A stretch of DNA of 49,418 nt from a virus, in the IMG/VR virus record IMGVR_UViG_3300025128_000066, positions 1 to 49,418 of that record; one strand, written 5' to 3'. This document shows, one piece after another, positions 9,107-37,099 of the stretch. The notes under the pieces are model-generated. The model ran no database searches. It had not been told where the DNA came from and saw only the letters and a program-made list of their open reading frames with translations. How positions within the stretch are numbered: position 1 is the stretch's first letter; each line of letters begins with the position of its first letter. The translations under genes were made by a program, and so were the position numbers.

Positions 9107-12100
9107 TTATGATTGTATTTTAGAACCGCCTTGATCAGATATCTGTCTTATTAAGTCACTATCTTTTGTAGAGTCTGAATTAATACCCACTCTAAATATC
9201 GTTGACTCATTGTTAAATAGATTAGTTATTCTTATAGGGACAATTCCTATTGAGCCAGATATAGTTTCATCAACTATAGTTTGTGAAGTCCGATAAACGA
9301 GTGCGGCAGTGGGCGATCCTGTCGGCGTGTTCGCGCCAGATAATGACCTTATACCATCCGATAATCTTAACTCAAATTCAATAGTTCCAGTTTCTAAATT
9401 AGTTGTAAATGCTACATCTTTCTCTTTGATTATTCTGCCTCTACCTGCCGCTATATTACCTATCGTAGCTTCAAAATAATTGTCACCGTTGGCCGAGGTT
9501 GGAAAATCAAATCTTAACGCAGGCATCTCAGTAGTAAAAACATTGCCTCTTGATAACAATCTTGCTGTTCCTTTTATTACCGCCGCTACATTAGCTGAAA
9601 TAGGAACTGCTGTAGGGGATATTAACAATGCATCCACAGTTAAATCAATTTGCGATTGAGCCGGTGATGATGGTTTAATAGTTAAGGGTAAAGCTCTACC
9701 TACGCTAGTCGGTAAAAATCTTGGCACATTGGTGGAACTCTGTACGCTCAAAGCACTTACGTTTCTTACGGAAGTAACACTGTTATCTAAAAACTCTTGT
9801 ACGCCATCTTGATATTGATATCCTTGGAAGTCAGCAGTAGTAGCGGCGGATGCTATTAATGTAGAATCGTTAGCACTATTACTTCCTTGTGTTGATAAAT
9901 TAGCAGGGTTATAATGATTATTAATCGTAAATGATGTAACCGCTATATCTATTAAACTTGGTACTTGATTATTAGGAGTTTTGCCTTCATCATAAGAAAT
10001 TATACCTCTATCACCACTCATTGTTGGCGCACCAACATAACCTGTTCCCGTTGATTCCCTCAACCCAAATGTTCTCCTCATTTTAGGTCGTTCTAGTAGG
10101 TGATTTTCGATGAACACACCTTCAGCTAGGGTATTAGTCTTACCAGGAATGAATTGCTTTATAAAGGTAAAAATACCCCCAAAAGTATCATTAAAATTAG
10201 ATACACCTTTTACAAAAGCGTTCAAGTCTGTAACACTAACTGTACTACCACTAGCGCCTGTTATGCTACTACCTAAAACACCACCACCACTTCTTATTCT
10301 ATCCCAAGCTGTAGAAGATTGTGTGGCGAATGTAGCGGACGGTGCCAAACCCATTTGCGCTGTTACATCATGCCACTGTTCTACGAACGGACCAGTGTAA
10401 GTTTTTCTATAAAGGTCTTCTGCATCACCCATTGTACCGGCAATATCTAAATTTTGATAAAAATTACGGATTGTATTATTTAAAACACTGATTGGGCTTA
10501 ATGAATAGCTAACGTAACCCACATCTGCCAACTTATCACCTGTATCTTCTTGTCGTATTTTATCATTATCGGGCGCTAATCCAACCGGAGAGTAATTGGC
10601 AACTTTTCTTTGGTTTTCAAATACTCTATAATGCTTTCCACTCAAACCACCAAACGAAACTGGATGCGCTGTATTACTAGCTGTTGTAGAATCAACAATA
10701 AAATTATAATCACCCTTTAGTACAACATTTTCTCTCAATTTATAATGAGCAGACAGACTGGAGAAATTAGCTTTGTTTGTTATGCCAACTGTATCTACCG
10801 AACCAGTAGAGTTTTGAAATGATACTGATTCAAAGTTTCTTGTCTGTTCAAACAAATCTTCATTTTGTAACGCTACATTGTGCCACGTTCTTACTTCGTG
10901 CATATACCCCGTAAAAGAACCAGATGCTGGAAAGTAAGTAGGAAACTGTGAATAGTTAGTGCCACCCCGAGCAAGAGTACCTACACCACCAGTAGAGGAA
11001 AAATTTATTCTTGATACATCATAATGAGCAGTAGCTCCAGATGAAAATGCCACAATATCGTTGCCGCCAGTAGGGGAGGCAGAAAGAGCCATAGTCCAAA
11101 CTCTTAATGTATCACCAGATCGTGAAGCGACTACATTAACAAAATTATTTGCACTGCCACCACCTTTAATCCAACCTGACATAGATGTTAGTAATGTTTG
11201 AGCCGACATAGAGGCAGTAATATTAGATTTAAAAGCTGCTCTTCCGCTTGCATCCATATCAATAGTATATAGTGGATGTTTCAACAAAGTCATATTACTG
11301 TGGTCAGCGGTGGCTGATACTCTCATTTGAATAGTAAAGTTTGTTGAAGCTGGAAAATCAAAAGCAAGAGCTGAACCAGTAGTGGCGTTAGATGTAGTTT
11401 GAATAAATGCATCACCCGAAGTATAAAATGCAGGGAAATCGACTTCTTCAACAACTCTTACTGATGTAGGTTTTTTAAAATCAGAATATTCGTTGTATTT
11501 AACAAAATTATGATCAACACCATATATTCTACTAATAGCTTCCGCAACTTCTTTTGTGCCTTTTGTTTTAAGGAGATAGGTTATGTTATTTAAAATCTTA
11601 TTCCAAATATCATAAGTTATTTCTTGTCTTGTAGAACCAGAGGTTGATTCAGTTAAGTACTTTTGAAAATCAGATTTTGTAGCCATTCCAAATAGTTGTA
11701 CACCAAACTCTTCCGCTAATGCAGGTAAAAATTTATCGGGAACTCTATTGTATTTATCATAACTTATTCTTTTTACATTAGATATTTGGTTAATAAATGA
11801 TTTTATTTCATCAAATTCATCCCCCATAGAAGCTAATAATTTTTCTAATATTTGATCTTCATCACCAGCAAATAAAACTTGTGGTAGTAATCTTTTAAAA
11901 TTTGGCCCACGCGTTACTCTAGTTTCAGCAGTAGAGGGGAACTCTATTATAGCTTTTCGGGTAGTGTTTCTCTTCAACCCATCTGGTGATGTATCTATTG
12001 TTAAATATTCAGCAGTACCGGAGGTTCTATCTACGACATTAAGATTTAAATCTTCAAAATTAACAGCCCGAGCGGAAATGGAATCTACCGTTCCTGTTTG

Positions 12101-12556
12101 TGAGCCGGTTAAACTATTTGTGGCCCCTCTAACAATATGAATTAAAGGAACTAAGTCACCATCTTGATTGGTGGCATTAACTGTTACATTAGCGTCAGCA
12201 TTTGGGTTAGATGAACTTGAACCTGTAATAGCTAATTTTTCTAATAACCATAAATCAAAACCATTTGCCTTCTTTTTAAAGTCATCAACTTTAAAGATAT
12301 TTTCAGCGCATAGAGATGATACATCGCCACCACTTGCACCGATTGGATAGTTATCTAATATATAATTGTAAGATGTATTGAATTTTCTTACTGCATCACT
12401 AAAAAATATATGCTGAGAAAAATCACCATAATCAACTAATGGTAGAACTCTTTCATCTTGACCAGTAACGCTTAAACTAATTAAAGCACCACTACTAGCA
12501 CCTATTGCAGAAAGAGAGGCGACTAAACTATCATATGAGTATCCAGAATCTGCCAT
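9107..12556 (-). CDS. Large baseplate protein: gpI/gp7-like core with LamG insertion (1149 aa)
   Basis: Probably a baseplate wedge/peripheral component. Residues about 215-360 carry a pattern seen in phage tail protein I-like and marine T4-like wedge proteins: DEFDEIKSFINQISNVKRIS, YDKYNRVPDKFLPALAEEFG, TRQEITYDIWNKILNNITYL and LKTKGTKEVAEAISRIYGVD. A LamG-like insertion follows (about 375-560; NFTIQMRVSATADHS through FTGYMHEVRTWHNVAL). The remaining 550 residues are beta-rich with no motif I can name. It lies between the DNRLRE-like gene and the methyltransferase-fold gene, with AGAGG just before ATG. The gp7-equivalence is by position and size, not certain; the structural role is well supported. 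Confidence 0.7.
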   Translation of the reverse strand: MADSGYSYDSLVASLSAIGASSGALISLSVTGQDERVLPLVDYGDFSQHIFFSDAVRKFNTSYNYILDNYPIGASGGDVSSLCAENIFKVDDFKKKANGFDLWLLEKLAITGSSSSNPNADANVTVNATNQDGDLVPLIHIVRGATNSLTGSQTGTVDSISARAVNFEDLNLNVVDRTSGTAEYLTIDTSPDGLKRNTTRKAIIEFPSTAETRVTRGPNFKRLLPQVLFAGDEDQILEKLLASMGDEFDEIKSFINQISNVKRISYDKYNRVPDKFLPALAEEFGVQLFGMATKSDFQKYLTESTSGSTRQEITYDIWNKILNNITYLLKTKGTKEVAEAISRIYGVDHNFVKYNEYSDFKKPTSVRVVEEVDFPAFYTSGDAFIQTTSNATTGSALAFDFPASTNFTIQMRVSATADHSNMTLLKHPLYTIDMDASGRAAFKSNITASMSAQTLLTSMSGWIKGGGSANNFVNVVASRSGDTLRVWTMALSASPTGGNDIVAFSSGATAHYDVSRINFSSTGGVGTLARGGTNYSQFPTYFPASGSFTGYMHEVRTWHNVALQNEDLFEQTRNFESVSFQNSTGSVDTVGITNKANFSSLSAHYKLRENVVLKGDYNFIVDSTTASNTAHPVSFGGLSGKHYRVFENQRKVANYSPVGLAPDNDKIRQEDTGDKLADVGYVSYSLSPISVLNNTIRNFYQNLDIAGTMGDAEDLYRKTYTGPFVEQWHDVTAQMGLAPSATFATQSSTAWDRIRSGGGVLGSSITGASGSTVSVTDLNAFVKGVSNFNDTFGGIFTFIKQFIPGKTNTLAEGVFIENHLLERPKMRRTFGLRESTGTGYVGAPTMSGDRGIISYDEGKTPNNQVPSLIDIAVTSFTINNHYNPANLSTQGSNSANDSTLIASAATTADFQGYQYQDGVQEFLDNSVTSVRNVSALSVQSSTNVPRFLPTSVGRALPLTIKPSSPAQSQIDLTVDALLISPTAVPISANVAAVIKGTARLLSRGNVFTTEMPALRFDFPTSANGDNYFEATIGNIAAGRGRIIKEKDVAFTTNLETGTIEFELRLSDGIRSLSGANTPTGSPTAALVYRTSQTIVDETISGSIGIVPIRITNLFNNESTIFRVGINSDSTKDSDLIRQISDQGGSKIQS

Positions 12557-28163: not shown

Positions 28164-31100
28164 CTATACTCCGTTACCTATGTCATAAAAATTTTCAGCA
28201 GTTGATTCAGCTATCACTCTACCATCCAAACGAACTTCTGTTTTACCAGTTTCAATCTGTGTCTTTATCATCTTTTGCATTAATTCATTTTGTTTCTTTA
28301 ACTCTTTTATCATGGTAGCGTTGGTTTCTTTTTGCTCATGTAATGGTATAACCATTTCTGGACCAGCTTCACCTATAACAGCGGTAGTTGGTTTAGTAAC
28401 AATGCCACCATCTGCTAATTGAGGTATAGCCATAGCTTTCATGTATTTATCACCACCGGCACCCCCATATAAAGCTTTATTAATAGCAGCAAAGCTGTTA
28501 AAGGCTTTTTGACCTTTGAGCTTTCCACTACCCGCAGCAACTAAAATGGAAGGATCAATACCGGCTTGCCATAATGGTTTTAGAACTTTACTTGATCCAA
28601 CTTTTTCTACTAACTTATTATAATCTTTTTCTTGAGGTACATTTTCTTTACCACCAACAGCAACGCTAATATTTTTTCTCATTCCGCCTGGTGAGCCATA
28701 ATCAAAAATACCACGACTTTTAACATGGTTTTCTATATTTTTAATTACTCGGTTACGCGCTTTTTTCTGACCACCAGTTATTCCAAGGGCTCTTCCTAGA
28801 GGACCGCCAACCATTTTCCCTACCATCGGACCTACCAGCGCACCTACGCCGGGAGGTATTGGAGGAATAGATAATAATGCAGTGGCTGCCATACCTACAC
28901 CTGCTTCTAAACCAGCTTGTGCGGCCAACCTCATATTACCTGTTTGCATGTATACCTGTGCGAAACTTAAGGCGGCAGCAGCTCCACTAGCTTTTGCTCC
29001 TCCTCCAAAACTTTTATTTGCATCACCCAAACCGTATGCATCTCGCGGATCTGTTTCTATTGCAGGAGTTTTAAGTTTAGGTTTACGTAATCCAAAAGTG
29101 GAGCCTGGATTACGCCGTCTAAAAGCCGCCGATGATTTGTCCCAACGCGACCGTTGAGCATAGTATGCCTCTTTCGCTGCATTGGCGGTTCCAGTTTCAA
29201 ATCCTGGCACTCCAATAGAACCTAACTCTGATGCAACACCAGCGTTTATTGGCAGACCTTTTCTTATTCTTTCAGTGGGTATAACAACTTCGCCTCTACC
29301 TTCTTCACCAACCATCATTAGTGTTGGGCTATTTACATACTTACCTTGAGCCGCAGCAGGTATGCCCATTTGCGTTTTTGCTACGTTCATTGCATCTTTA
29401 CCTAAAAGTTTGGTGGCCAACATCGTCACACCACCCGATACAGCCGACCTCTTCATACTTTCTTTAGCTGCACCCCAATCACCTGTTTTAGCATATGTTG
29501 CCATCGCACTTTGAACACCTACAGACAGAGACTGCATCGCTATGCCCATTGCAGCAGTAGCTTTGCTTTGAGAATTTATTAATTTTCCAATTGCTTTATT
29601 ACTTTTTTCAAAAAGATTATATACCGTACCACCTTTTTTCATACTTTCTGTAAGACCAGCACGTACACCTAGTTTTAAGGCATCTTTTGTTTTCATGCCA
29701 GATGACCAAGCCGTCATAGCAGTAAAAACACCTTTATACATTTCTTTAGCTGCTGGACCTTGATTCTTTAATAAAACTTTCGCAACAGTGTCAATATCTT
29801 TTTTGTTTTCATTAAAAAATTTCTTTAACCAATCTAAATCATCTTTCTTCTTTTGATTCGGATCACCCATATTATCTAGTTTGTTTTGATAATGTTCGCG
29901 CCAGTAGTTAACCATCGCCGCTTGCTGTATAGCTTGCTCTTTTTGGAATGCCGCTGCTTGAGCGCCTCTTGAGGCTTCGGAACCAAACCCCGTCATTAAG
30001 CCTTTTCTATCAGTAGTTCCAGATACGCCTCTAAAAAACCCTGGAACACCAATACTTGCTAAAGCTGACGCAGCTCTACCACTTACACCAACACCATTTC
30101 TTAATGCAGCTCTTGAAGTAACAACTTCCCCACCAGCTTCACCTACTAATGCTGTTGTACCTTTTTTATTAATAACACCACCGCGAGACAATGACAACGA
30201 ACCCAATGGGTTGGCAGCCAATTGCGCTAAAATATTTACCATACTATTAGTTAATGTATCTTCTTCGATCATTACTATATTTCTTTCAATACCCAGATCC
30301 TTCGCGGCAAGATTTTTCAATTCTTCTCCACGACCTGCAGTTTGTTGAAAATCAAATTTGAGCCACTCCTGCATTTCGCCTCCCCATCCAGTCCAAGACT
30401 CTTCATTTATTCTCTGTGTATCCAGCTTTCGGCCATGCTCTAAAAGCGCTTCTTCTTGAGCTTCTAAATTGTCAGTAACTTTATTTCTTGCCTTTATTTC
30501 ATTATCTACCGCCGTCTCAAGTCTCTTGGCGTTTTGTTCTGTTTCAGTAACATATGCTTTTACTGCTCCTTCTCTATCTGCTTTTATCTGTGACTCCAGT
30601 GCGGCTATTACTTCTTTTTGTGCCTCAATGTCACCCTCCTTCGTCAACCCTTCTAATTTTTTCTTTTGTAAATTTAATAATGTAGCACCTTCAGCTTCTA
30701 TTTTTTCAATCGCAGTTTTCATATCATTGAAAGCTTCAACATTACCTGTTGATTTGCCTGCCGTTGCAGCCTCAACATCTTTTCCAGCTTCGTTTGCTTT
30801 TTCTATAAGTTTTAATTGATCATTTAACTTCCCTTGCTCGGTCTTTTCAAAACCACCAAATATACTAAACGTATAATTTTCTTGAAACCAAGTTATAGCT
30901 TTTTCCATTCCTTCAATCAGCCAATCACCAATTTTAACACCTAATGTCTTAAAACTACCCCATACCGCACTAATAAAACCTCCAATACCTCCACCTTTAT
31001 CGGATATTTTTTGTTCTAAACCAGGAAAATCAAATATAGATTCAATTTCATTAGCCAAGATCGTTATCTGACCATGTATACTACCTTTGCCAGTTTGATC

Positions 31101-32495
31101 TATACCTAATAACTTACTGAAAGCAGTTGTAAGTCGATTAAACACGCCCATCGCAAGCTCTTGCATTCTTTGTATAACATTTTTTTGCTCATCCATCAGT
31201 GCGTTTTGGGCTTCACGCTCATCTGTTATCTTTTTATCTATAGCTAATCTTGCATCCTGTTCTTTTTGTAATTTTTTACCGTATGCAGACTCAGATCTAA
31301 GTAATTTCTGCCGGTCCTTCCATTTTTCACCAGTTAATTCTTCCCACGATTTTCTATCTTCTGCAATTACTTCTCTATTCTTTTCAATATTAAAAATTGA
31401 CCCATCTTCCATAACCTTAAATGCTAATTTTGCGGCCTCTTGATTCCTTTTATTAATTTCTTTAAGATCGCCCGTCTGGTATAACATAAACATTTGATGC
31501 GCATCACCATAAACATCTTGCAATTGGTTGCCAAATAAATGAGTAGCCTTGCCCATGGCCAATCCAGATTTTTCTAAATCTGACCATGCTGTAGCTATAC
31601 CTTCATAATCAGATAAGCTACCACCAACATTAGCAGCTTGGATAGCCATAGCTTTAAAACCTTCAACTCCGCGTGATGAGGCAACAGCAATTTTATCTGC
31701 GTTAGCCGCGATGTCTCGCATAACTAAACTCACGCTTGCTCCGGCTGGCACCGCATCTCTTATACTTTGTAAAAACTCACCACTAGCAATTTGGCTTCTT
31801 TCTAAAGTTTCTAAAAGTTGGCCAGCATTTTGAGCAGACACTCCGTATGCTTTTTGTAATCTTAAACTATCTTCAATTACTCCAGCTGTAACATATTTTA
31901 TATTTCCAAATATTTGAGCTAAATTAGCAGCCTCTTGGGCAGTTTGTTCAAAACTTACACCAAACCTACCCATAGTCATTTCTGCATCATAAGCTGCTTG
32001 TTTTACTCCTTCTAATTCAGCTCTAGTTATCCCTAAGCTTTTTACCATACCAGCCATCGCTGTATCTACTTTCAGCAAACCATCAATAAGAAACTTTACC
32101 CCCACTACTAACCCACCAATAACGCCAGCCTTACCTATAGCAGCCATACCTTTTCCTACCGTACCAAGACCACTTTTTAACCCCGACATAGTTTTGCCAA
32201 AAAGATTCATACTCTTAATGGTTTCTTTTAAACCTTTATTTAATAGTGTGGAGTTTTTAAGTCTTTGTTGCAGCTGTATGGTCATCTTTTTTTGTAGAGG
32301 AAGCGCCCTTTTTTCTTCTCTTATTTTATCTCTATTGGCTTTCGCAAGTTGCTTGGATACCGTCTGCTTTTCTTTAATCATCTGAGCTTCAAGCGTAGAA
32401 GTGCTAGTAAGTTTTATTAATAAATTATCAAAGCCTTCGGATAGGCGTTCTAATCCGCCAGCAGCACCTTCTAATTGATTTCCTAAATCCGCCAT
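28164..32495 (-). CDS. Tail tape measure protein (1443 aa)
   Basis: Sets tail length and is ejected with the genome. The N-terminus is helical and basic (MADLGNQLEGAAGGLERLSE, LAKANRDKIREEKR). A hydrophobic glycine-rich stretch at about 115-145 (GKAGVIGGLVVGVKFLIDGL) is typical of tape measures. Helical segments continue to about 750. The motif GEAGPE with its flank occurs three times: TTALVGEAGGEVVTS near 768, MMVGEEGRGEVVIPTE near 1055 and TTAVIGEAGPEMVIPLHE near 1361, each after a Gly-Gly or Lys-Tyr-Val 'lid'. This is a familiar tape measure signature. Two repeats are preceded or followed by SIGVPGF. Using about 0.15 nm per helical residue, a tail near 215 nm would be expected if fully helical (an estimate). 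Confidence 0.88.
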   Translation of the reverse strand: MADLGNQLEGAAGGLERLSEGFDNLLIKLTSTSTLEAQMIKEKQTVSKQLAKANRDKIREEKRALPLQKKMTIQLQQRLKNSTLLNKGLKETIKSMNLFGKTMSGLKSGLGTVGKGMAAIGKAGVIGGLVVGVKFLIDGLLKVDTAMAGMVKSLGITRAELEGVKQAAYDAEMTMGRFGVSFEQTAQEAANLAQIFGNIKYVTAGVIEDSLRLQKAYGVSAQNAGQLLETLERSQIASGEFLQSIRDAVPAGASVSLVMRDIAANADKIAVASSRGVEGFKAMAIQAANVGGSLSDYEGIATAWSDLEKSGLAMGKATHLFGNQLQDVYGDAHQMFMLYQTGDLKEINKRNQEAAKLAFKVMEDGSIFNIEKNREVIAEDRKSWEELTGEKWKDRQKLLRSESAYGKKLQKEQDARLAIDKKITDEREAQNALMDEQKNVIQRMQELAMGVFNRLTTAFSKLLGIDQTGKGSIHGQITILANEIESIFDFPGLEQKISDKGGGIGGFISAVWGSFKTLGVKIGDWLIEGMEKAITWFQENYTFSIFGGFEKTEQGKLNDQLKLIEKANEAGKDVEAATAGKSTGNVEAFNDMKTAIEKIEAEGATLLNLQKKKLEGLTKEGDIEAQKEVIAALESQIKADREGAVKAYVTETEQNAKRLETAVDNEIKARNKVTDNLEAQEEALLEHGRKLDTQRINEESWTGWGGEMQEWLKFDFQQTAGRGEELKNLAAKDLGIERNIVMIEEDTLTNSMVNILAQLAANPLGSLSLSRGGVINKKGTTALVGEAGGEVVTSRAALRNGVGVSGRAASALASIGVPGFFRGVSGTTDRKGLMTGFGSEASRGAQAAAFQKEQAIQQAAMVNYWREHYQNKLDNMGDPNQKKKDDLDWLKKFFNENKKDIDTVAKVLLKNQGPAAKEMYKGVFTAMTAWSSGMKTKDALKLGVRAGLTESMKKGGTVYNLFEKSNKAIGKLINSQSKATAAMGIAMQSLSVGVQSAMATYAKTGDWGAAKESMKRSAVSGGVTMLATKLLGKDAMNVAKTQMGIPAAAQGKYVNSPTLMMVGEEGRGEVVIPTERIRKGLPINAGVASELGSIGVPGFETGTANAAKEAYYAQRSRWDKSSAAFRRRNPGSTFGLRKPKLKTPAIETDPRDAYGLGDANKSFGGGAKASGAAAALSFAQVYMQTGNMRLAAQAGLEAGVGMAATALLSIPPIPPGVGALVGPMVGKMVGGPLGRALGITGGQKKARNRVIKNIENHVKSRGIFDYGSPGGMRKNISVAVGGKENVPQEKDYNKLVEKVGSSKVLKPLWQAGIDPSILVAAGSGKLKGQKAFNSFAAINKALYGGAGGDKYMKAMAIPQLADGGIVTKPTTAVIGEAGPEMVIPLHEQKETNATMIKELKKQNELMQKMIKTQIETGKTEVRLDGRVIAESTAENFYDIGNGV

Positions 32496-32499
32496 CTAT

Positions 32500-32790
32500 T
32501 TACTTCTTTCTATTTTTTTTCATTTGACGTAGAACATCGTCAAGGGTCATACCTTTTTTATTTAATTTCTTTTCTAGATCCTTTTGTTTACGCATCTTTT
32601 TTTCAATTTTTTTCAGTTCATCTTGATTACGTTTATCTTGTTTAGTTCCATCAGATTTACGATTACGAAAAAAATCAATAGCTGAATGTACTCCTAAGCC
32701 GGCTAATACGGTCTTAGCTAGATTACCATAATCAAAGCCACCAGACTTTTCAGCAAAAGGATCAACTATTCTAGCGTGTGGTGTTGCCAT
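32500..32790 (-). CDS. Small basic protein upstream of tape measure (96 aa)
   Basis: The sequence starts MATPHARIVDPFAEKSGGFD, has a short hydrophobic patch (LAKTVLAGLGVHSAIDFF) and ends in a strongly basic helical tail with alternating Lys and Glu (KKIEKKMRKQKDLEKKLNKK). GGAG lies about 8 bases before ATG. It stops 4 bases before the tape measure start and follows the 13-bp hairpin at 32823-32859. I do not recognise the family. Being locked to the tape measure gene, it may be a tape measure partner or chaperone; this is position-based only. Confidence 0.7.
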   Translation of the reverse strand: MATPHARIVDPFAEKSGGFDYGNLAKTVLAGLGVHSAIDFFRNRKSDGTKQDKRNQDELKKIEKKMRKQKDLEKKLNKKGMTLDDVLRQMKKNRKK

Positions 32791-32822: not shown

Positions 32823-32859
32823 AATATCCCCTTATAACAAAAAGTAATAAGGGGATATT
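32823..32859 (-). terminator. Strong 13-bp perfect hairpin (terminator or RNA processing element)
   Basis: AATATCCCCTTAT (32823-32835) and ATAAGGGGATATT (32847-32859) are exact reverse complements around an 11-base loop. In the transcribed (minus) direction the stem is followed by TATTTATTTATG, U-rich but not a clean U-run. It begins 3 bases after the stop of the shifted-frame ORF and lies just before the basic protein and tape measure genes, so it would dampen tape measure expression or protect the upstream mRNA end. Confidence 0.7.
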
Positions 32860-32862
32860 ATA

Positions 32863-33093
32863 TTAACGACCAATACTTCGCGCTCGTAACGATTTACCAC
32901 TAGATTGTTGCGCTGCTTGGGCCGATTGTTGACTTCTTTTGTTATCTTCTTCGTTAATTTCGTTTATTTTATTTAACCACCACTTACGCCATTTAATAGG
33001 TAAGTTATAAGCATCAGTAAAGCTCAGATGCCCGTAATAAACACAATAAAAACATTCTTCAAAGATATATTCCTTAAGACTAGGACTCAGGCC
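32863..33093 (-). CDS. Probable frameshift extension of the gp26-like tail assembly chaperone (76 codons)
   Basis: The frame directly after the gp26-like gene is open for 76 codons and ends in TAA, but contains no ATG, GTG or TTG codon. It reads SLKEYIFEECFYCVYYGHLS, then FTDAYNLPIKWRKWWLNKIN and a Gln/Ser/Ala-rich end. The 'y+.e..f...y.G.ls...ay.LPi..R+w.i..+n' pattern is what I associate with second-part products of tail assembly chaperones placed before tape measure genes. It lies in the +1 (equivalently -2) frame relative to the upstream gene, is open back to a TGA inside that gene, and so could be read by a programmed shift. A fusion made at TTT_TGG would be 372 aa. Alternatives: an unusual start codon such as CTG or ATA, or a non-coding remnant; the conserved-looking protein pattern argues against the last. 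Confidence 0.7.
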   Translation of the reverse strand, partial: GLSPSLKEYIFEECFYCVYYGHLSFTDAYNLPIKWRKWWLNKINEINEEDNKRSQQSAQAAQQSSGKSLRARSIGR

Positions 33094-33982
33094 AAAAGAA
33101 ACCGGTAGTCACCGGTATTTCCACCTCCTCCGTATGACCACACATACGACATTTGAAATCCTGCTCCATATTAACATCCGGTTCTAACTCTTCTAAAAAC
33201 GTACGAAAAGCTCGCGAATCACGAAGGTTCATCGTATCTACAAAATTATTGATAGATATTTGTTCTTCATTACCATTAACAGAAATAATTTGATGCTTAT
33301 ACTTAGTAGTTACGTTTTTCTCCAAGGGAGAATTTGTAGCTCGCTTAAGCTTATCTTGTTCATCAGTAATCTTTGCATCTTCTGCACTATTCAACAACTT
33401 AAAATGAATTTCAACTCCCGAAGGTAGTACAAAACTAAATCTATTTTCACCAGCCGATATTGGATCAACATCTAAGAACCTCATCGTTAACTGACTCAAA
33501 TCAAATTCATGTTTAATGTTTTCGCCACAACCAGGACAATCAATTTCAACAGGATATTCCGGCCCATACCCTGTAATTCTAAGAAATGTTAAAATAGCGT
33601 TCTTATCACCAGAAATTAATTCTTCTACGTTAATACTTTTGTTCATAAGAACATTTGAAAGCATTGTATCAATTGCTTTACCGCTGCGTAACAAAGCTCT
33701 TGAAGTTAAAATATCTTCATCAGCCGCGGTCAAATGTCTTACTTCAATCTCTTCTACATTATGCAACGGTGAAGATTGTGGGTAAATTCTCCCCTTAGAA
33801 GGGATCATCACAAAGTCTCTAGGCACAGAAAAACCCGCCATCTTATCATATTCAGTAGCCCTATCGGATGCAACTTTTCTTGCATACTCTTCGGGATTCT
33901 GACTGATTTCAGTCGGGTTTATCTCGGTAGAACTTTTACTCTCATCTTCAAACTCAATAGATGCAGTTTTGCTTTCACTCAT
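33080..33982 (-). CDS. gp26-like zinc-ribbon tail/baseplate assembly protein (300 aa)
   Basis: Resembles the T4 baseplate family that includes gp26, placed ahead of the tape measure. Visible features: SVPRDFVMIPSKGRIYP, VRHLTAADEDILTSRALLRS, NAILTFLRITGYGPEYPV, then CPGC near 148 and CRMC near 278, two Cys pairs that could bind one zinc. The end is VTTGFFWPES. The sequence between 33109 and 33080 is a window in which a +1 shift leads into the start-less ORF downstream. SD AAGGAG is about 9 bases before ATG. By place (tube gene, this gene, tape measure) it occupies the slot of the tail assembly chaperone G/GT pair of lambda-like phages. T4 gp26 is shorter (208 aa). Confidence 0.78.
   Translation of the reverse strand: MSESKTASIEFEDESKSSTEINPTEISQNPEEYARKVASDRATEYDKMAGFSVPRDFVMIPSKGRIYPQSSPLHNVEEIEVRHLTAADEDILTSRALLRSGKAIDTMLSNVLMNKSINVEELISGDKNAILTFLRITGYGPEYPVEIDCPGCGENIKHEFDLSQLTMRFLDVDPISAGENRFSFVLPSGVEIHFKLLNSAEDAKITDEQDKLKRATNSPLEKNVTTKYKHQIISVNGNEEQISINNFVDTMNLRDSRAFRTFLEELEPDVNMEQDFKCRMCGHTEEVEIPVTTGFFWPES
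33092..33097 (-). other. Candidate +1 frameshift site TTT_TGG
   Basis: On the minus strand the codons ACC GGT TTC TTT TGG CCT GAG TCC TAG end the gp26-like gene. A tRNA-Phe on TTT can slide one base forward onto TTT again with full pairing, after which GGC is read and the 76-codon ORF follows. The permitted window is limited by a TGA in the shifted frame (overlapping GTG ACT) and the TAG at 33080-33082. A shift at TCC_TAG, driven by slow stop decoding, is a second option. Confidence 0.4.
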
Positions 33983-34061: not shown

Positions 34062-34556
34062 TTAGTATCTCAAAATACATTCGTCAGGACGAACCGTAAG
34101 ACTAATTTCAACAGGCTCACCACTAGTATAATCCAAACCACCGAAATCTGCATCGGTAATCCATGCGCCCTTAATATCCCACTGTTCAACTGTAACGCCA
34201 ACAGGGTCCATTAAGTTAAGAGAGAAATCTTTCTTATAAAAAGCCGCATAACCATCACGACCAGAAATTGTTTCGTGAGCTAACCTCGCCCATTCCATAA
34301 CTTTCTGAGAAGCAGATGGTGCAATTGGATCGTGAAGAGTCAAAGCAATAGTGCCCCATTCAAACTTACCAGCCAAATATCTTTTGCTATTAATGTAATC
34401 AATAACAACAGATTCTTGAGTGAAAGTCGGACGAGCAAAAGTTTTCGCAACAAACTGAGGAAGTACATCGTCAGCAAATTGGAAAAACCATCTATTACTT
34501 CTTTTCGGTTCAAATGTATCCGCGAGCATCTGATTTACGGATCTAACATCAGCCAT
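34062..34556 (-). CDS. Tail tube protein, gp19-like (164 aa)
   Basis: Forms the inner tube. The 164-aa length is almost that of T4 gp19 (163 aa). Pattern: MADVRSVNQMLADTFEPKRS, NRWFFQFADDVLPQFVAKTF, ARPTFTQESVVIDYINSKRY, then GTIALTLHDPIAPSASQKVM and WDIKGAWITDADFGGLDYTS. This is the 'npYl.kt..rP......i.....yl.g...W....vtlrDpi......ia' tube signature followed by 'L.ga...s.d.g.ldYss.e.v.i'. I chose the ATG at 34556 because it has a strong ribosome site (GGAGAT, 6 bases away); an in-frame ATG 27 codons earlier lacks one and adds an unrelated segment. It lies directly after the sheath gene, as in T4. Confidence 0.9.
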   Translation of the reverse strand: MADVRSVNQMLADTFEPKRSNRWFFQFADDVLPQFVAKTFARPTFTQESVVIDYINSKRYLAGKFEWGTIALTLHDPIAPSASQKVMEWARLAHETISGRDGYAAFYKKDFSLNLMDPVGVTVEQWDIKGAWITDADFGGLDYTSGEPVEISLTVRPDECILRY

Positions 34557-34606
34557 TCTATATCTCCAAAATATATAAAAATATTTTATGTTCTGAAATA
34601 AATATA

Positions 34607-34651: not shown

Positions 34652-37099
34652 TTACTCACCAAAAGATGCGCCTTGAGGTGTCAATGTAAAGTCAAAGATA
34701 ACAATTTCAGCAACCGTAGTCGGCTTGAGGAAAATCTTACCCTTGATAACATTTCTATCTACTAAATCAGCACCTTCTTCAATAGAAGCTCTAAACTCGT
34801 TAATACCATTGGCCGATTGTACTGAACCAAGATAGTTATTAACCATGTTTAGCAATGCGCTTCTTGTCTGAGCGTTGTTCTGTTCAAAGACGAAGTTGCG
34901 AGACATTCTAGAAATAGTTTTTCTAACTGTTAACATCATTCTACGAACATTTACTCTATCCAATACAGATTGCTTCTTCTGTAGCGTCTTCTGACCAAAG
35001 ATAACAATACCTTGGCCTGGGAATGTAGCGATAGGATTAACGCCTGGAGTGTTATTGTAAAGACTATCACGTTGAGTCTGTGTCAATCTTCTTCTAACTT
35101 CCAATACTCTTTCCAAACCACCACGATTAAAGCCAGCAGGTGCAAACCAAGGTTGACCCACTCTATCGTTAAACGCATAGGCACCCATTACTTCAACAGA
35201 AGGCGGTACCCAAACAAGGCGATTATTTTCAGAGTCATTAATTCTAACCCAAGGATAGTAGGTAGCAGCATAATTACTATCATATTTGTTACCTTCAGCC
35301 TGAGCTTGTGCTACCGACAGTGCTAAACCAGAACCAGTAGCAGTTGAATTAGCAATATCAAGCAGTAAGAAAGCGTCACCTCTATTTTCAACCATATCAA
35401 CAAAGTTGTTAAGAGGTGCGCCAGCAGCAGACGAAGTAACGCCAGGAACTGCTAACAAATTAAACTCAACTTCTTCGGGATTGGCTAATGTTTTTCTAGC
35501 TACATCAAAGTCACCCGACACTGTACCGTCATTTAGATCAGTAAGTAGATTAGAACGAGGATCATAACCATCCCAACCACCAAATACAGGAGCAACAAAT
35601 TTCAATGCATCATTATTATCAAGACCAGTGGTGCGTCTTGCGGTCGAGCCGGTAAAGTTACCAGAGTTAGAGCCAACCATGTTAACCAACGTAAAGTTAG
35701 TAACACTACCCGAACCCGAAAGCTCACCAGTAGTAGAAATAAACAACAAGCCAGAATCAGCAGTTGTGCTACCCGAAGCAGATGTAACGGTTTTCTTAAG
35801 TCTATCACCAACACCAGGTGATTGAAAATTAATACCCATCACCTTGGTTTTATTAACCACACCATCTTTTAACTGATTAGTAACAGTAGGTAGTGCAGCA
35901 ACAACAGCACTCAAACCTTGTGTGTTAGAAGAGCCAGGTCCAGCAGCAGGGCCAGTTATCGGACCACCGTTTGTAGCGAGAATTGAACCAACACCTCTAA
36001 AACCGCCTGGTCGTGAATCATTGTCCCAACCACCAGTATTCATTTCAACTCTTACAAGCTTAGACCTATTAGGAAAGTCACCATTGAAGAGTAATTCGGG
36101 AGGATCTTGTGTTAAGTCATAAGAGACAAAACGATCACCGATTACACGACCAATATACTTTTGAGAGCTAACATCAAGGTTAACATTTTCATAAGATTCT
36201 AAAATCTGAGGACTTATATCGCTATCATCAGCATTACGAATACTAATTGTAAATTCGGGAAATGCAGATACCGAAGTTGCAACTGTGGAAACTTGAATCT
36301 TAATAGAGTTATTTTCAATCTGACCATGTGAACGAGTATGAAACTTAAACAAGTTTTGCACCGCTCCACCAGCGTTTTGCGAAACAATCCATGGCGAAGA
36401 AGCTGCCGCGAAACCACCAGTAACATCATCAAAAGCATCACCATTAGCAGTGACCGATACATGATCTTGAGTGATACCGGCAGCAGCAGACCCACCACTA
36501 ACAGTACCGCTAACATTATCATAATCATAATCAAATACAGCGTCTACATAAAGATCAGTAAGTTTTTCACCAGTGTGAGAAGCTTGTGGATCAGTACCCA
36601 TAACCTTCTTAACATAGTTACCACTAGCTTCATTCATCGACAAGCCAGTAACAATTGTGCCACCAGCCGATAATGAAAAGTTGCTAGGAGTACCACTAAG
36701 AAGAATATCACCATCACCAGATGTTCTCTTTCTAACCGTACCTAAAACAGTACAACCACCCGATACAGCCGAGATTGAAAAACCCGACAATTTGGGAAAG
36801 GAAAGAAAGCCAATTGTGCCAGCAGCAACTGTACCTCTACCTAAGACGCGAGTTACACTAAGTGTAGATGCATTTCTTAGATAAGATTGAGCCGCATAAG
36901 GCATATAAAATTCAGGATTTAATCCACCAAAACGATCTCTGAACTGACCAAAGGAATTTACTGTAGTGGGTAGAAAGGCCGGACCCTTCTTCGTGAACCC
37001 AACTAGAGCAGCACCGATAGCAGCAGCACCAGGCGGCGGACTAAAAGTATCATCCATTTCCTGTGTATACACACCAGGGGATACAAATACTTCAGCCAT
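34652..37099 (-). CDS. Tail sheath protein, gp18-like (815 aa)
   Basis: The contractile outer tube. The N-terminus MAEVFVSPGVYTQEMDDTF is the universal sheath opening, followed by GAALVGFTKKGPAFLPTTVN and FGQFRDRFGGLNPEFYMPYA. The C-terminal third has WVPPSVEVMGAYAFNDRVGQ, WFAPAGFNRGGLERVLEVRR, LYNNTPGVNPIATFPGQGIV, IFGQKTLQKKQSVLDRVNVR and KTISRMSRNFVFEQNNAQTR, all diagnostic of sheath domain C. At 815 aa it exceeds T4 gp18 (659 aa), through extra beta-rich material in the variable middle (about 150-550), which faces outward in known sheaths. GGAGA lies 7 bases before ATG. A 210-base leader precedes it. Confidence 0.95.
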   Translation of the reverse strand: MAEVFVSPGVYTQEMDDTFSPPPGAAAIGAALVGFTKKGPAFLPTTVNSFGQFRDRFGGLNPEFYMPYAAQSYLRNASTLSVTRVLGRGTVAAGTIGFLSFPKLSGFSISAVSGGCTVLGTVRKRTSGDGDILLSGTPSNFSLSAGGTIVTGLSMNEASGNYVKKVMGTDPQASHTGEKLTDLYVDAVFDYDYDNVSGTVSGGSAAAGITQDHVSVTANGDAFDDVTGGFAAASSPWIVSQNAGGAVQNLFKFHTRSHGQIENNSIKIQVSTVATSVSAFPEFTISIRNADDSDISPQILESYENVNLDVSSQKYIGRVIGDRFVSYDLTQDPPELLFNGDFPNRSKLVRVEMNTGGWDNDSRPGGFRGVGSILATNGGPITGPAAGPGSSNTQGLSAVVAALPTVTNQLKDGVVNKTKVMGINFQSPGVGDRLKKTVTSASGSTTADSGLLFISTTGELSGSGSVTNFTLVNMVGSNSGNFTGSTARRTTGLDNNDALKFVAPVFGGWDGYDPRSNLLTDLNDGTVSGDFDVARKTLANPEEVEFNLLAVPGVTSSAAGAPLNNFVDMVENRGDAFLLLDIANSTATGSGLALSVAQAQAEGNKYDSNYAATYYPWVRINDSENNRLVWVPPSVEVMGAYAFNDRVGQPWFAPAGFNRGGLERVLEVRRRLTQTQRDSLYNNTPGVNPIATFPGQGIVIFGQKTLQKKQSVLDRVNVRRMMLTVRKTISRMSRNFVFEQNNAQTRSALLNMVNNYLGSVQSANGINEFRASIEEGADLVDRNVIKGKIFLKPTTVAEIVIFDFTLTPQGASFGE

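Follow-up and report, generated by a model that had tools for sequence, protein, structure and literature searches.

A single gene in the virus record IMGVR_UViG_3300025128_000066 of IMG/VR very probably makes two tail assembly chaperones (TACs), the longer of which would arise by +1 slippage of the ribosome at the hexamer TTT_TGG. The whole record, of 49,418 bases and probably itself a fragment, was analysed and is referred to as the window. The N-terminal part of the gene product, TAC-N, is homologous to gp26 of phage T4, and the gene is followed in the +1 frame by a start-less open reading frame (ORF) that encodes the extension TAC-C. The elements concerned are:

33080..33982, minus strand: TAC-N (short form), gp26-like baseplate hub/tail assembly chaperone of 300 residues with two CxxC pairs, matching PF12322 and phrog_150; zero-frame coding part 33982-33083, stop codon TAG at 33080..33082
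33109..33111, minus strand: TGA that closes the +1 frame upstream
33092..33097, minus strand: proposed +1 slip site TTT_TGG, with UUU (33097-33095) in the P-site and UGG (33094-33092) in the A-site; slip-codon wobble T in 157 of 157 loci
32866..33093, minus strand: TAC-C (extension of the long form), +1 frame, 76 codons, start-less; stop codon TAA at 32865-32863

Coding status of the start-less +1 frame

The +1 frame is open over 81 codons (33108-32866), 76 of them counted from the GGC after TTT_TGG, and contains no ATG, GTG or TTG anywhere. It overlaps the gp26-like gene by 26 nt and, because of the TGA at its upstream end, a shift must happen 3′ of that stop codon. An earlier note on this DNA had described such a start-less ORF of 76 codons with a short overlap and a 372-residue fusion product; its coordinates and description hold, and the length of the fusion is correct when the extension is counted from GGC (296 plus 76 residues).

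The +1 ORF is protein-coding and under purifying selection in the +1 frame. Among close relatives its dN/dS is about 0.05-0.1; between the window and the relative L002, dN is 0.06 and dS is 1.36 (NG86), and the substitutions are distributed 7/5/27 over positions 1/2/3 of the +1-frame codons. The frame is preserved in L002-L006, and the stretch ggtttcttttggcctgagtcc is identical in L001-L006. Of 197 homologous genes, 189 are followed by a +1 extension of 45 or more codons, compared with 11 of 398 other ORFs of the same loci, a control set which includes mechanical ORFs. In confident AlphaFold2 (AF2)-type models, for which TAC-N and TAC-C were folded as separate parts (predicted local distance difference test, pLDDT, of 87 and 85, respectively), TAC-C consists of three helices.

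Split ORFs often originate from a sequencing error or from the decay of a gene broken by an indel. For the present gene such an origin has a negligible probability, since the frame relation is the same in about 200 contigs and many isolates and since selection acts on the +1 ORF at the low dN/dS given above. A sequencing error, which the earlier note had named as a possible objection together with a lack of conservation of the 76 residues, is excluded: the reading frames are identical in L001-L006, which were assembled independently, and in many further assemblies. The 76 residues are conserved.

Distribution among relatives and direction of the proposed shift

Profile searches over IMG/VR and phage records yielded 212 loci with a zero-frame gp26-like gene. 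A hidden Markov model (HMM) of the extension was searched in all three frames and matched in the +1 frame at 184 loci, in the -1 frame at 5 and in-frame at none. The loci missed by the HMM were read by eye, which added 16 extensions in the +1 frame and 3 in the -1 frame and left 4 cut by contig ends. Of the 212 loci, 200 thus have the extension in the +1 frame and 8 have it in the -1 frame; the zero frame is used by none, and the other 4 loci are shortened. After clustering at 60% identity, 70 clusters were entirely +1, 3 were entirely -1 and none was mixed. By contrast with this reach via gp26, the 76 residues alone gave no match at E 1 in a tblastn search of phage records. No match was obtained when plasmids were searched with gp26, and a genome scan with the SP-15-type alignment returned a single locus in a metagenome-assembled genome (MAG).

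Isolates with a +1 extension are Flavobacterium phage immuto, Microcystis phage Mel-JY01, Streptococcus phage GXN1, Listeria phage LIS04, Bacillus phage SP-15 and Streptomyces phage BRock, and Stenotrophomonas phage RAS14 is an isolate with a -1 extension. The -1 loci mostly bear T_TTT_TTT or T_TTT_TTC, which are classical -1 heptamers. Judged by the sequences, the direction of the frameshift changes between +1 and -1 within one gene family; the loci with a -1-frame extension in the same chaperone family are L014, L016 and L136-L141.

In the public annotations of immuto, SP-15 and BRock, small ORFs designated as hypothetical proteins lie inside the TAC-C domain (immuto_232, SP15_046 and BRock gp135), and the record of LIS04 has no annotation in this domain. 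The TAC-C stretches concerned are L009 3833-3943, L013 3794-3913, L015 3758-3940 and L012 3729-3960. The small annotated ORFs give the impression of fragments of the frameshifted extension that were read wrongly.

The proposed slip site and alternative origins of the second frame

Site statistics were compiled from 157 distinct TGG-type loci, all of which share the invariant site TT[T/C]-[T/C]TT_TGG. The slip codon is TTT in 136 and CTT in 21 of these loci, and it ends in C in none of the 157. The Phe codon directly 5′ of the slip codon is TTC in 10 of the 157, and elsewhere TTC makes up 20% of the Phe codons. The invariant third base of the slip codon is hard to ascribe to coding in the second frame, because this base is not read in the +1 product. 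Across the same loci, the variability of alignment columns peaks at the zero-frame wobble position before the site and at the +1-frame wobble position after it (offset changing from 2 mod 3 to 0 mod 3). The naming of TTT_TGG as the slip site in the earlier note is backed by comparative evidence. In CTT_TGG relatives, re-pairing would resemble that of prfB from CUU to UUU. Divergent members have TTT_CGT, TTT_CGC, TTT_CGA, TTT_CAC or TTT_CAT at the site, and an A-site CGN occurs in the SP-15-type and BRock relatives. A few loci (for example L128, L132 and L133) have a +1 extension but carry TTC_AAT_CCC where a TTT slip codon would be expected; here a slip on CCC_A is possible. A conserved GGAGGTGG is located about 28 nt 5′ of the slip site; as a prfB-like Shine-Dalgarno (SD) element it was rejected, this distance being too large.

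It is very unlikely that the +1 ORF is instead a separate small gene, translated from a non-standard start codon (CTG, ATC) or by coupled re-initiation past the zero-frame stop. Such a gene would fit the CTG AGT just 3′ of the slip site in the window, the presence of CTG at that place in 106 of the 157 loci, and the overlap of the two frames, which is as in coupled genes. However, the codon at that place is CTA in 46 loci and another one in 5; it simply consists of CT and whichever base opens the following zero-frame codon. No SD sequence precedes the CTG. An ATG, GTG or TTG is present within the first ten codons past the slip in only 33 of the 157 loci, and in 66 of the 184 +1 loci the +1 ORF has no start codon as far as the zero-frame stop. 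This stop (TAA or TGA in relatives, TAG in the window) lies 3-10 codons from the slip site, so that there is no fixed coupling distance, and a separate gene would leave the invariant T at the slip-codon wobble unaccounted for. A conserved independent start codon with a ribosome site, to which the earlier note had drawn attention as a counter-indication, was not found in the relatives.

Slippage of RNA polymerase, rather than of the ribosome, on a run of T residues is highly improbable as the cause of the frame change. A run of seven T is present in 126 of the 184 loci, but the sequence at the site in the window is only TTTC TTTT, and with four as the longest run transcriptional slippage is unlikely here. 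Moreover, in the 21 loci with TTTCTTTGG the runs do not exceed 3-4, and the TTT_CGN sites are not accounted for by a T run.

A shift of -2 leads to the same frame as +1, would yield a product longer by one residue, and occurs in Mu-type chaperones. The earlier note had left +1 and -2 side by side. The +1 shift is supported by comparative evidence; its re-pairing from UUU to UUU is perfect, and tRNA-Phe pairs fully one base on in every TTT_T or TTT_C case. The -2 shift is scarcely credible: from TTC_TTT_TGG it would place tRNA-Phe on GTT or TCT, without proper pairing.

Family assignment and relation to T4 gp26 and gp51

The zero-frame protein matches the Pfam family T4_baseplate (PF12322; E 8e-17, 62 bits against a cut-off of 24.5) and the baseplate hub family PHROG 150 (phrog_150; 3e-20). 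T4 gp51 is homologous to gp26 across its first 203 residues (hhalign E 2.4e-20, prob 99.3) and carries about 45 additional C-terminal residues beyond the gp26-like part. Over almost all of its length, a profile of the fused product from the relatives of the window aligns with the gp51 family (E 0.0016), and this alignment matches up both the zinc-ribbon cysteines and the P..[EL]R motif of the extension. For this comparison the alignment of the gp51 family was needed, as T4 gp51 as a single sequence gave no usable match to the TAC-C or N-part profiles. Additionally, 3 of 38 extension domains matched phrog_634, baseplate hub assembly catalyst (0.0016).

On the simplest reading of these comparisons, T4 appears to encode as genes 26 and 51 what the phage of the window would make from one frameshifted gene. 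The N part belongs to the gp26 family, and gp51 is a gp26 domain with a C-terminal extension; in T4, in contrast, the two genes are separate and divergently placed.

TAC-C matched DUF6760 (PF20546) in 12 of 38 members, with a best value of 1.7e-5 and 4e-5 for the window. Among 392 genomes of the phylum of the Erysipelotrichaceae MAG, the DUF6760 search gave one match. It lies near tail tube and sheath genes, as in the phages, but the bacterial locus is degraded. This decayed tail-like locus (L103, about 9800-12300) contains sheath and tube fragments and a DUF6760 remnant with an internal TAG, and may represent a contractile injection system or a prophage in decay. In fold searches, the only topical match in the PDB was the HK97 tail chaperone 2ob9 (rank 10, prob 0.28, TMt 0.47), and TAC-C, a plain helical hairpin, found nothing under E 0.05 among viral models.

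Proposed mechanism

Most ribosomes would terminate normally and release the 300-residue gp26-like TAC-N. In a minority, peptidyl-tRNA-Phe on UUU, with UGG (read by one tRNA only) as the next codon, would slip one base forward and re-pair perfectly on the overlapping UUU (U_UUG), the following codon being GGC. Translation of 76 more codons would then add the helical TAC-C to give a TAC-NC of 372 residues, with the predicted junction peptide ...TTGFFGLSPSLK. The lambda gpG/gpGT and T4 gp26/gp51 systems suggest, by analogy, roles for both parts: binding of the tape measure protein for N and recruitment of tail tube subunits for C, with neither expected to stay in the virion.

Several observations weigh against this scheme or parts of it. 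The RNA downstream of the slip site shows no excess of structure over control stretches and no stimulator was found, so the efficiency of frameshifting may be low. In 108 of the 157 loci some start codon is present between the opening of the +1 ORF and ten codons past the slip; these codons are at unconserved places and only 24 have an SD-like motif. The census relied on a T-domain model derived from +1 readings, though all frames were searched. Concerning the family assignment, the match between the fused product and gp51 has a low hhalign probability (16%), TAC-C alone retrieved nothing when compared with the gp51 profile, the DUF6760 match of 24 bits is under the Pfam gathering cut-off of 27 bits, and the PDB fold search was without a significant match.

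Organization of the locus

The gene order in the window is sheath, tube, gp26-like gene, TAC-C, 96-residue ORF and putative tape measure gene. The neighbouring features are:

34652..37099, minus strand: tail sheath protein (phrog_23, 1.5e-65)
34062..34559, minus strand: tail tube protein, gp19-like (phrog_4542, 7e-29)
32500..32790, minus strand: ORF of 96 residues between the chaperone and the putative tape measure gene (phrog_1722 tail protein, 0.004, weak)
28164..32495, minus strand: putative tape measure protein of 1443 residues, assigned by position and length

The family search gave no named match for the 1443-residue protein; a tape measure gene is annotated at the equivalent position in L009, L012 and L013, and the flanking of the chaperone locus by tube and tape measure genes holds for the isolates as well. 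Profile searches of the window returned one PF12322 match and one DUF6760-like match, hence the long form was not seen there in another, separate copy. Immediately past the stop codon of the +1 ORF, a near-perfect hairpin of 13 bp (32823-32859, minus strand, z -4.0) is largely kept in L002-L006. It has no T run after it and may serve in the processing or stability of the RNA, or as a weak terminator.

Relation to known systems and significance

Frameshifting of the lambda tail chaperone G/GT is the classical case. The window resembles the lambda gpG/gpGT system (the family of Xu, Hendrix & Duda 2004) in having a short chaperone gene ahead of the tape measure gene and a minority product that a programmed frameshift close to the 3′ end would lengthen, and comparative evidence supports the gpG/gpGT-like role suggested in the earlier note. 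It differs in the proposed +1 shift on UUU_UGG, where lambda has a -1 shift on a heptamer, in its N part, an unrelated-looking gp26/PF12322 zinc-ribbon protein with no lambda G/T sequence match shown, and in the 96-residue ORF preceding the tape measure gene. A review in Nucleic Acids Research (2016) listed T4 as an exception to frameshifted tail chaperones. The suggestion of a gpG/gpGT equivalent in T4-like phages is likewise supported, although the existence of such T4-like chaperones had already been published (Vladimirov et al. 2022). Vladimirov, Gautam & Davidson 2022 is cited in PMC10885494 and PMC12846349, the latter citing it for poly-T -1 signals.

For the chaperone of HF1-group haloarchaeal myoviruses, a +1 shift at TTT_CGC has been proposed by prediction (PMC7230728). 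That system shares with the window two coding sequences between the tube and tape measure genes, the +1 frame and the TTT slip codon; it differs in its archaeal host and in the A-site codon (CGC instead of UGG), and the two are likened by arrangement. In influenza A PA-X, UUU_CGU is an experimentally proven +1 site, for which the favoured model was slippage on UUU_C in the P-site while a slow codon waits in the A-site, and amalgaviruses use +1 frameshifting at UUU_CGN (PMC3498833). Slippage of a P-site UUU by +1 is common to PA-X and the scheme proposed here, and the hexamer UUU_CGU is also found in SP-15-type relatives, whereas PA-X and amalgaviruses involve a eukaryotic ribosome and unrelated genes and the A-site codon in the window is UGG, not CGN.

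The work of Vladimirov and colleagues from 2022 reportedly identified the T4-like chaperone genes, with frameshifting kept in several T4-like groups and genes 26 and 51 used in T4. The principle is therefore known from lambda, T4-like phages and HF1; added here are UUU_UGG as a +1 site, the breadth of its occurrence and the switch between +1 and -1, part of which that work may cover. It is possible, though rather unlikely, that contractile-tail chaperones have since ancient times been controlled by a stimulator-free +1 switch (UUU followed by a slow codon, UGG or CGN), common to the T4-like and jumbo phages of bacteria, the myoviruses of haloarchaea and perhaps contractile injection systems (DUF6760), and that descendant lineages exchanged this switch for -1 heptamers or for a duplicated gene (T4 26/51).

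Public records split or miss the TAC-C domain, and their annotation is corrected here. Frameshifted tail chaperones are usually of the -1 type; the gp26-type chaperone described here appears to use +1 at a minimal site in at least 70 protein clusters. UUU_UGG would offer a simple +1 site for study in bacteria, and the +1 and -1 sister lineages would form a natural series on how a recoding site changes direction while its product is kept.
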